Shown in pieces: positions 8,771 to 17,797 of a DNA stretch of 36,774 nucleotides (positions are counted from its first letter, which is position 1; every line of letters starts with the position of its first letter). The stretch spans positions 1-36,774 of the forward strand of contig JAJZJY010000003.1 in the NCBI GenBank assembly GCA_021809885.1, read 5' to 3'. A program made the position numbers and the translations under genes. Below the pieces are notes generated by a model. The model was not told where the DNA came from and made no database searches. It was given only the letters and a program-made list of their open reading frames with translations. Origin of the DNA: Actinomycetes bacterium (GTDB lineage: Bacteria > Actinomycetota > Acidimicrobiia > Acidimicrobiales > Palsa-688).

Positions 8771-11587
8771 CTACATTTCGATAGTAACGTTAGCGTCACT
8801 AAATCCAAGTTGACGAAGGCCTTCGAGCACCACCAATTCAAGGGTTTCTCGCGGGATGCCAGCAAGGCCACCCTCTGCTCGGATCACGAAGTCAACTGTC
8901 ACGTCGGCGCTGGACGCTCCCAACGGGACGACCGCGACCTTCACGACCTCCCGAGCCTTGGTCCCAGGGACCCCGCCGACCCGAATGGTCACAGCCCCGA
9001 CACTGGCGTTCGTACCGGCGCCAGGGTCGGCAATGGTACTTCCACCAGAACCATCGCCAACAGAGCTGCTGATGGTCGTGGTACGCGTCGGTTGCGCGGG
9101 GATTTCGCTAGGCGTTGATGCGTCATCTAGACGCCGGGCCCGTAAGCCCTTTGCGACCCCCGCACGGACCAGCCAGGTGCCCGGTTGGAACTGCACTTCG
9201 TCTGCGGCGACTTGCTCCGCGAAACGGACCAGGGCGTCCTCTGAGTCCCAGGACGACCCGCTGACGAGGCCGAAGAGACCCTTGGCCGCCCCCTCGGCCA
9301 GGGCCTGGCGCAGGACGTCAGGGCTGGTGAGCTTCGGCAGGCGCGGTAGCCGGTAGAAGTAGCCGAGCAGCGTATCGAGTTCGACCGCATCCGTGCCTTC
9401 CGGTAACAGCCCGAAGCGCGCCGCCAGGAGCGCCGCGGGCGCAAGTGCGCTGACCAAGCGGTCCGCGCCCTTCAAGTGGTCAAGGACCCGCTGCCCGACG
9501 AGGGCGTCCACCTTGCCCGGTCCAAGATCGACATGGTCGAGCTTCGCACCACCGCCGTCCCCCTCACCCAGGAGCAATAGGTGCCGGTAAGCCATGGCGA
9601 CCTGCTGTGGAAGGCGCTCTTCGGCCGCCGCGAGACGCTTGGCCAGCTGTTCGCGCTGCTCGGCGTTGAAGCGCCCCAGTCGGTGCTTGTCGTCCCTGAT
9701 GTCCCGCAAGGCCGCTAGGGTCCGTGCCGACCCCCTTGCCTTTGACATTGAAGGGCCGTCGGCAGCGACCAGCATCGCTGCATTCTTGTTGGACCGCCAA
9801 CTGGACCCCCGGTGCTCCAGGAACTCTCGCGAAACCCTGAGGGTTTCGTCGGTCTCGTCCCCGCCGACACGCCAACCGAAGTCGAGCATACCCAGCACTA
9901 GTTGCTGGGTGTCCGGGAGGTCAGCGGAGCCTTCCACCCGAGGCTCGACGCGCAGCTCGAACGAGCTAGGCGCCACCGCGCCCAGTGCTTCCCGCAGCAG
10001 GGCGTCGATCCGGTCGTCAATTATCGCACCTTCACGTTCGAGCACCACCTTGTTCAGGTTGGGCTCGGTCGTAAAGCGGTAACGGCCCCCTTCGAGGCGC
10101 ATGAACCAAAGGGAGTTCTCCAGTGTGTCCCGCACATCCTCGATGAGGCCACGAGACAGCCCGGGACGGCCAACGCCAACCAACATCTGCGCTGCCGAGG
10201 CGCCGAGCACCTTGTCCGAGCCGAACGAATGCAGAAAGGCCGTAGTAGCAAGCCCGGTGGCGAGGCGGAGCTGTTCCACCTGTCCCCCGCGACGGCGGTC
10301 CTCCTCAGGTGCCTTCGAGTCACTTCTGATGATGTCAGCGTTCAGCGCCGACTTGTAGCTCTCACCGGCGAAGCGCACCACTTCTCCCCTGATACCGGCG
10401 TCTGACAGCATCACGTCGCCCGGATGGATGAGTGCCGCCTGGGGGCCCTGTTGCGAGAGCGCCTTTACGGTATGGGCGAGGGTACGCAGCGCGCCCCGGG
10501 TGCGCTGGAACCCCGACAGCGACCCCCACCGGTTGGTAAGGATGTCAACCAGCTCGGGATGGAAAGGGAACGCGCCCGCGAGCCGGTCCCGGTAGGTGGC
10601 TTCACGGTACGCGGCGGGCACGGCGTCACCCAGCGACTCGTACCAGTCGGCATAAGCGTTGGCCACCGCGCGGCGCTCGGCCTCGGGGCCGATGGTCGTG
10701 AACAGGCGCCGATGGAGAATAGGGAAGATGTCGTCACCCTCCACCGGGGTCACGATGTTCTCGGTGCGCCCCACCACCTTGGAGAGGCGCTCGAACATCT
10801 CCTCGCCGTGGAGGCTTGCGTAGTCCTCCAGGTGTGACGAAGTGAGTGTGGCAACGACGGCCGCGCCCGGGACACTGGCAGCCGCGGTGCATAGCTCCTT
10901 GATGAACGTGAGCGTGACAGAGGCCAGGTTGCCTTCTCCCGCACCGACCGGCAAAGCCTTGGTCAGGTACTGGAGCGCCTCGTCGAGCAAGACCACGCAG
11001 GGGGCGTTCGCTTCCAGCAAGGCTGATAACTGCGTGGTCGAAGAGCCCCAGAGCTGGCGGTCCTGGTCCGCAACCTTGGCGTACGCGGCGGCACCACCCA
11101 GACGGTAGGCGAGCTGGCCAAGGAGCGTGTACACCTCGGCGTCGGGGATATCTGGGTCCGGCTTGCCAGCCGAGAGCGCCCCTCCCTCAAGCACGACTAC
11201 CTTTGCCTTCGGGAAGTCTGTTCTGCGCAGGGCCTTGGCCAGTTCGCCAACGAAAGCCGTGCCTGCCACCTTCGTCGGGTCCCTGAAAAGGTGGTATGCC
11301 GCGAGAAGCGTGTGCGTCTTGCCGCCACCGAACTCGGTCTGGAGCCGGTAGACGCCGGCGGCGGACATATCACCCGACAGCCGAGCCGTCAGTTCACCTA
11401 GGAAGGACCGTAACGCCTCAGTGAGATAGGTCTTCTCGCAAAAGCTGACTGGGTCCAGGTAGTCAGCAGGCCCGCGCTGGCGGTCCACCAGGCCGAGGTC
11501 CGCTGCAAACAGGGACTCGTCGAACGAACCGTCGGCGATGTCCCTTCTCGGCTCGGCGACCTCACGCCAAGGAGGCAGCATGCTCAT
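8771..11587 (-). CDS. DUF499 / COG1483-like AAA+ ATPase, part of methylase-helicase defence operon
   Basis: 938 aa; Walker A TEFGGGKTHTLLAAYHLF; Walker B CVVLLDEALQYL. Last gene of a same-strand operon with helicase and methylase. Confidence 0.85.
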   Translation of the reverse strand: MSMLPPWREVAEPRRDIADGSFDESLFAADLGLVDRQRGPADYLDPVSFCEKTYLTEALRSFLGELTARLSGDMSAAGVYRLQTEFGGGKTHTLLAAYHLFRDPTKVAGTAFVGELAKALRRTDFPKAKVVVLEGGALSAGKPDPDIPDAEVYTLLGQLAYRLGGAAAYAKVADQDRQLWGSSTTQLSALLEANAPCVVLLDEALQYLTKALPVGAGEGNLASVTLTFIKELCTAAASVPGAAVVATLTSSHLEDYASLHGEEMFERLSKVVGRTENIVTPVEGDDIFPILHRRLFTTIGPEAERRAVANAYADWYESLGDAVPAAYREATYRDRLAGAFPFHPELVDILTNRWGSLSGFQRTRGALRTLAHTVKALSQQGPQAALIHPGDVMLSDAGIRGEVVRFAGESYKSALNADIIRSDSKAPEEDRRRGGQVEQLRLATGLATTAFLHSFGSDKVLGASAAQMLVGVGRPGLSRGLIEDVRDTLENSLWFMRLEGGRYRFTTEPNLNKVVLEREGAIIDDRIDALLREALGAVAPSSFELRVEPRVEGSADLPDTQQLVLGMLDFGWRVGGDETDETLRVSREFLEHRGSSWRSNKNAAMLVAADGPSMSKARGSARTLAALRDIRDDKHRLGRFNAEQREQLAKRLAAAEERLPQQVAMAYRHLLLLGEGDGGGAKLDHVDLGPGKVDALVGQRVLDHLKGADRLVSALAPAALLAARFGLLPEGTDAVELDTLLGYFYRLPRLPKLTSPDVLRQALAEGAAKGLFGLVSGSSWDSEDALVRFAEQVAADEVQFQPGTWLVRAGVAKGLRARRLDDASTPSEIPAQPTRTTTISSSVGDGSGGSTIADPGAGTNASVGAVTIRVGGVPGTKAREVVKVAVVPLGASSADVTVDFVIRAEGGLAGIPRETLELVVLEGLRQLGFSDANVTIEM

Positions 11588-11657
11588 CGAGAGTTCTCCT
11601 TTGCGGTCCGTTCACGCGATGGGTACGCCACGCTCTCACGGTGAACGCTGGCTAGCA

Positions 11658-17300: not shown

Positions 17301-17797
17301 CTGACCCACTGAGGCCGAAGGTTGGCCGGGGTCACCACGAGCAAGCGGTCCCCCGCGCGCCGAAGGACCAGCTCTTTCATGTAGAGCCCGGCCATGATCG
17401 TTTTGCCGGCCCCAGGGTCGTCCGCCAACAGGTAGCGAAGCCGCGGCTCTTTCAAGAAGCAGTCGTAGACGGCTTCGAGCTGGTGGGGAAACGGGCTGAT
17501 GTTCGACACCGCCAAGGCCGCCATCTCGTGACCGAACGCCACCTGGATGCGATGGGCTTCTATCCCAAGGCGGAACAGGACCGGGTCCCCGTCGAAGCGC
17601 AGCTCTGCCGGCGTCTCGAAAACCTCGACGGCAGCAAGCTCGCTCTCGGCCAGCACATGTTTGCCGGTACCCGAGGGACCGTCGTAGAAGAAGTGCCAGT
17701 ACGTCCCCGGGGTCACCGCTACCAAGGTGACGACCTCGGAGCGGCCCGGGAAACGGACTCGCGCCTCGGGCCTCAACCTGTCGAGGTCGAGCGTCAC
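14375..17797 (-). CDS. SNF2/SWI2-type helicase with C-terminal DUF3883-like domain
   Basis: [83 protein letters not shown]. C-terminus [49 protein letters not shown] is DUF3883-like. The ORF extends to 17950; GTG at 17797 is chosen because the extra 51 aa look non-coding. The stop overlaps the methylase ATG (14375-14378). Confidence 0.9.
   Translation of the reverse strand: [1140 protein letters not shown]

Follow-up and report, generated by a model that had tools for sequence, protein, structure and literature searches.

A divergent Hma operon in an actinobacterial draft genome, most likely a type-1 BREX-related restriction-modification system

Gene content and layout of the operon

The window analysed here, a 36,774-base contig (C104) of a fragmented draft genome (5.4 Mb in 894 contigs), carries an operon of three long, intact open reading frames (ORFs) at 8771-17797, all on the minus strand, which encode a helicase (hmaA), a methylase (hmaB), and an ATPase (hmaC) (Table 1). 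The hmaA stop and the hmaB start share exactly 4 nt (14375-14378), a spacing of 70 nt (11588-11657) separates hmaB from hmaC, and both of these genes start with ATG. The ORF coordinates agree with the initial annotation, which described three long minus-strand genes with a 4-nt helicase-methylase overlap and a gap of ~70 nt, and the catalytic motifs that it listed as intact (GAGKT/DEAH, CFAGGG/DPPY, and FGGGKTH/LLDEA) are all present and well conserved in relatives. For hmaA, the longest frame (14375-17950) opens at GTG 17950, but homologues align to it only from residues 38-59, so GTG 17797 is the likelier start. HmaA residue numbers below count from GTG 17950.

Homologues of HmaA, HmaB, and HmaC, as defined by the PADLOC models, lie adjacent in this one operon, with scores of 645 bits (residues 56-1160), 428 bits, and 447 bits, respectively. 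The three-gene operon is confirmed as real rather than a chance arrangement, since each protein matches its model at E < 1e-120 and the A-B-C order recurs in other loci, both from Actinomycetota and from the phylum of the window; the earlier proposal of a modification-linked candidate antiphage operon is upheld. The name Hma dates from 2021 and was given to a candidate defence operon of three genes, with 1,638 instances in 26 phyla (Payne 2021, PMC8565338). A 2026 study places this operon, with identical content, as type 1 among the DUF499-centred BREX-related (BR) systems, which it describes for type 1 as restriction-modification (RM)-like with a helicase-nuclease effector (PMC12839542). According to the same study, the type-1 helicase has an active C-terminal PD-(D/E)XK nuclease in 79% of taxa and an N-terminal TUDOR-like domain as a family feature, and the nearest relative of type-1 BR is type-3 BREX. 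We identify the window operon as an Hma system, equivalent to a type-1 BR system, and consider it probable that it works as an ATP-driven RM system. The system type is already described, and the operon adds a divergent, intact member rather than a new kind of system.

Table 1 Features of the operon in the window
Feature	Position	Strand	Evidence
hmaA: SNF2/SF2 helicase with predicted C-terminal PD-(D/E)XK nuclease	14375..17797	-	PADLOC HmaA 6.2e-194; Pfam Helicase_C, SNF2-rel_dom, NOV_C
hmaB: DUF1156 adenine-type DNA methyltransferase	11658..14378	-	PADLOC HmaB 1.2e-128; Pfam DUF1156 5.8e-24
hmaC: DUF499 AAA+ ATPase, BrxC-like, without HEPN fusion	8771..11587	-	PADLOC HmaC 4e-134; Pfam DUF499 4.4e-27
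HmaA helicase core: Walker A K183, DEAH 279-282, motif VI	16037..17500	-	Pfam matches within residues 151-638; motifs kept in relatives
HmaA NOV_C/DUF3883 nuclease domain, predicted active site D1098...E1111-V-K1113	14489..14749	-	Pfam NOV_C 2.4e-14; AlphaFold; Foldseek
HmaB motif I CFAGGG, S-adenosylmethionine binding	14040..14057	-	Motif conservation in relatives
HmaB motif IV DPPY, N6-adenine/N4-cytosine type	12873..12884	-	DPPY in all 20 rows
HmaC Walker A region FGGGKTH	11312..11335	-	GGGK and H invariant in 22 rows

A predicted nuclease domain at the C terminus of HmaA

HmaA contains both helicase motifs, PGAGKT and DEAH, well conserved among its relatives, and resembles BrxHI/BrxHII (8e-100). 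Its NOV_C (DUF3883) domain occupies residues 1068-1154 with the pattern GFD-x12-EVKG. The initial annotation could make no nuclease-family call in the operon; this has to be revised, since Pfam, alignment, AlphaFold, and Foldseek all point to DUF3883/NOV_C as a PD-(D/E)XK domain with intact catalytic residues. When the window helicase was aligned with 21 relatives, 20 of these proved to retain both G[FY]D and EVK; the sole exception is the second, tandem helicase of a canonical Hma locus, L044, which reads IGVK. The domain alignment shows no variation at positions G67, D69, V83, and K84. For the C-terminal 162 residues, the AlphaFold model has a mean pLDDT of 85.6, with a core above 90, and its best Foldseek matches are archaeal Hjc Holliday-junction resolvases (E 4e-5, probability 1.00), followed more weakly by EcoRV (E about 6e-3). 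Both are PD-(D/E)XK enzymes; the TM-scores of 0.4-0.6 are moderate, as expected for a minimal nuclease core. A PDB sequence search with the domain profile found nothing, and fold comparison alone succeeded. Thus, sequence motifs and the structure model together predict a PD-(D/E)XK restriction-nuclease domain with intact catalytic residues at the HmaA C terminus, in line with the term "novel REase domain" (REase, restriction endonuclease) given in 2013 to DUF3883 fused to this helicase type (PMC3710099).

The L044 locus itself (1302-8374) has two tandem full-length HmaA genes, and the product of the second, without the catalytic Glu, is perhaps an inactive partner subunit.

The methylase HmaB and the BrxC-like ATPase HmaC

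DPPY is found in 20 of 20 aligned HmaB proteins, with the glycine-rich motif I lying before it, and a Cys-pair region (CPNPSC...CPAC) sits in the insert between motifs I and IV. By these motifs, HmaB belongs to the amino-methyltransferase class (N6-adenine or N4-cytosine). A search for HmaB homologues on viral contigs found none.

HmaC is a protein of 938 amino acids with GGGKTH and LLDEA motifs and no HEPN domain. Its AlphaFold model (pLDDT 86.8) has BrxC of an Acinetobacter BREX system as all of its top five PDB fold matches (Foldseek, E 4e-7 to 8e-5, including 9zll, 9zn5, and 9zdx), with Cdc6 as the next match after BrxC, providing independent support for the BREX relationship. As for the nuclease domain, a PDB sequence search with the HmaC profile found nothing, and only the comparison of folds succeeded. 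The C-terminal domain (about 862-938), which follows a disordered linker (824-861), has two helices and no strands assigned in the AlphaFold model; a C-terminal RRM/ferredoxin-like domain is reported for the DUF499 family of type-1 BR (PMC12839542). A canonical relative, in locus L045, bears a Swt1-type HEPN domain at the HmaC N terminus. The HEPN-less form is common, as only 1,370 of 2,446 type-1 taxa carry HEPN (PMC12839542).

Linkage and phylogeny of the three genes

Nine relatives with 56-60% identity in HmaB come from Solirubrobacterales, Streptosporangium, Actinomadura, Streptomyces, and one Hyphomicrobiaceae metagenome-assembled genome. Eight of them have the full helicase-methylase-ATPase order, and the ninth is cut by a contig end. 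HmaC was found in 20 of 199 genomes drawn from the phylum of the window. The loci from these genomes with enough flank have A-B-C on one strand, except for L050 and L051, both of the PLD-helicase type, and L004, which have the reverse order with the ATPase first; loci that do not show the full set mostly lie where a contig ends. The recurrent linkage claimed in the initial annotation therefore withstood the neighbourhood check. In some canonical members, additional sequence separates the genes. The window shares no flanking gene with the loci of the relatives, and all other matches are antisense shadows of the three genes. The DUF3644/HEPN neighbour of the operon was considered as a fourth component and ruled out, being present in no relative's locus.

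In trees of HmaB and HmaC, from which the near-duplicate Streptomyces locus L011 was excluded, the window groups with its close relatives in a single clade with full support, separate from both the HEPN-type canonical Hma clade and the PLD-helicase (type-2) clade. The window operon is a divergent branch whose architecture stays within the described range. Could this mainly actinobacterial clade, with nine relatives at 51-61% HmaC identity, no HEPN domain on the DUF499 protein, and strict three-gene packing, be a mechanistically distinct Hma subtype, for example, one wholly reliant on the helicase-nuclease and without a suicide arm? We think this unlikely.

Two further loci deserve mention. L043 (5928-12613) has a DUF1156 methylase and a DUF499 ATPase, with only a 360-residue, weak helicase-like remnant upstream. 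One DUF499 match (G010, contig C46) falls in an "open frame" of 24,923 residues; this was set aside as an apparent artefact of masking, with N at 1,496 of the 4,959 bases retrieved.

Comparison with described defence systems

The operon shares gene content and close packing with Hma but lies in the divergent clade described above: its HmaA scores 645 bits against the PADLOC model, compared to about 1,200-1,736 in canonical members, and its HmaC has no HEPN domain. The type-1 BR set of an ATPase, an N6-type methyltransferase, and an Snf2 helicase with a C-terminal PD-(D/E)XK nuclease, without a PLD/HKD nuclease, is matched by the DUF1156 methyltransferase with DPPY, the DUF499 protein with a predicted BrxC-like fold, and the predicted nuclease with an intact active site; nothing in the operon falls outside the described range of that type.

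BREX, and type-3 BREX (BrxC, BrxXI, and BrxHII) in particular, is related through the BrxC-like fold of HmaC and the similarity of HmaA to BrxHI/BrxHII, but the predicted effector of the window operon is a helicase-fused REase. PglZ, BrxA, and BrxB, which BREX would have together with BrxC/DUF6079, were not detected among the 30 window ORFs scanned. Type-2 BR systems (PLD-helicase, DUF1156, and DUF499; NCBIfam NF042962, NF042963, and NF042964) have a homologous methylase and ATPase, but their helicase has an N-terminal HKD/PLD nuclease, and the window proteins score far under the cut-offs of all three families. Membership in type 2 was rejected: the window helicase has no PLD domain, and there is no room for a further gene (DUF3780) between the three genes.

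Proposed mechanism and alternatives

How might the three proteins work together? HmaB would methylate a recognition sequence in host DNA, on adenine judging by the DPPY motif, and thus mark it as self. HmaC, as a BrxC-like AAA+ ATPase, would assemble with HmaB and HmaA, or license the complex, and scan DNA. Where the complex meets unmethylated (phage) DNA, HmaA would translocate, and its C-terminal PD-(D/E)XK domain would cut. The scheme builds on the domain content, the intact active-site residues, and the conserved operon, together with the modelled nuclease and BrxC-like folds. That the proteins form a complex, that HmaB methylates a specific sequence, that unmodified DNA is cut, and that the window copy protects against phage are expectations from this anatomy and from knowledge of the family.

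Several points weigh against the reading of the operon as an ATP-driven RM system. The window copy is known here from its sequence and predicted structures. In the available part of the 2021 report, Zorya III, Hachiman II, and Lamassu II were cloned, Hma not being among them, and HmaB is called a 5-methylcytosine (m5C) methyltransferase, at odds with DPPY (Payne 2021, PMC8565338). DPPY marks the amino-methyltransferase class; therefore, the m5C label of 2021 does not fit HmaB, and this identity was ruled out.

Cleavage by the helicase-nuclease is taken as the default, since the DUF3883/NOV_C domain is a predicted nuclease with intact residues; the suggestion in the initial annotation that unmodified DNA is discriminated without cleavage is therefore no longer favoured. 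In a translocation-based interference, the complex would recognise DNA that lacks the modification and stop its replication or injection by translocating on it instead of cutting, with the nuclease domain as a mere backup. This would suit the BREX-like HmaC, as BREX was long described as stopping phage replication without visible cleavage, and the second L044 helicase paralogue with IGVK in place of EVK would also fit. It is unlikely, however: the window helicase has an intact predicted nuclease active site, which 20 of the 21 relatives conserve, and the nuclease is the primary effector according to the BR study (PMC12839542). A reduced DISARM, with HmaA as DrmD, HmaB as DrmM, and the partners lost, would explain the strong similarity of HmaA to DrmD (PADLOC, 360 bits, 5e-108) and shares with the operon the logic of an SNF2 helicase plus a methylase, with a loosely similar working. 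Nevertheless, the HmaA model scores far higher (645 bits), the NCBIfam DrmD cut-off is missed (346.8 of 610 bits), no protein specific to DrmA, DrmB, or DrmC was found among the 30 ORFs scanned, and the HmaC fold is BrxC-like, which makes this origin very improbable. DISARM membership was rejected on the missed cut-off and the lack of partners among those 30 ORFs. Of the compact DISARM-like variant without DrmA/B/C put forward in the initial annotation, the absence of these partners holds for the ORFs scanned, but the operon is a standard Hma/type-1 BR operon.

The operon could also have a non-phage role, such as exclusion of plasmids or mobile elements, or could maintain itself selfishly as an RM-like addiction module, given that its neighbours on a putative mobile island include toxin-antitoxin-like genes and a serine recombinase adjoining a tRNA gene. 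We rate this as improbable; such a role is not exclusive with defence, and the 2026 study cites an experimental report of a protective relative, a nuclease-fused Snf2 helicase defending in Halomonas meridiana (Liu 2024, cited in PMC12839542).

For the preferred reading, an ATP-driven RM system of the type-1 BR kind, the modelled folds of HmaC (BrxC-like) and of the helicase tail (Hjc- and EcoRV-like) independently back the view put forward in 2026, in which Hma is related to BREX and carries a fused restriction nuclease. Hma is a widespread yet mechanistically little-studied defence family, and our analysis names candidate catalytic residues to mutate.

Genomic surroundings

In gene content the contig resembles a section of a defence or mobile island: the hma operon sits among other defence-type genes, none of which is conserved with it. 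Divergently transcribed from the operon is a gene at 19542-20840 (+) whose product, a DUF3644/PDC-S19 protein of a family described in the literature as HEPN, shows RNQVAH at residue 196; relatives do not share it. At 1579-4407 (+), a gene for an FtsK/HerA-like ATPase precedes one for a NERD nuclease-related protein; the two resemble defence-type translocase-nuclease pairs. At 26607-28710 (-), an HTH-fused MNT-type nucleotidyltransferase gene (PDC-S09) and an AbiEii-like nucleotidyltransferase gene lie beside an HTH (helix-turn-helix) gene and look like toxin-antitoxin modules. A large serine recombinase gene (35015-36732, +) overlaps with its last bases the 3' end of tRNA-Leu(GAG) (36648-36732, -), as at an integration site; a repeat scan saw no second copy of the tRNA-Leu end, the contig ending just past the recombinase.

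Two sets of repeats were observed. A tandem array of about 10-12 copies of a 20-bp unit, TGGGTAGACRGCAAGCWAGC, occupies 8321-8559, between a plus-strand ORF (7844-8299) and the hmaC 3' end, and its core is found nowhere else in the same genome. The sequence GGGGACGCGGCCAA[A/C]TG occurs four times within 2.8 kb (3704-3720, 4428-4444, 4727-4743, and 6505-6521), three of the copies being identical.

Elsewhere in the same genome, L004 (2683-12623 on contig C636) is another operon, distinct from the first, whose genes run DUF499-DUF1156-helicase. It gives PLD_Helicase/PbeA-type matches, is without NOV_C, and is a probable type-2 BR system. Fragments at contig edges, L054 (C259), L055 (C661), and L056 (C505), belong to one or more canonical Hma systems (HmaA 1308 bits). 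Three BR/Hma systems may therefore be present in the draft genome, provided that none of the contigs concerned is contamination (estimated at 4.8%). Other genes on the window contig encode an M78 peptidase and a further N6/N4 methylase.

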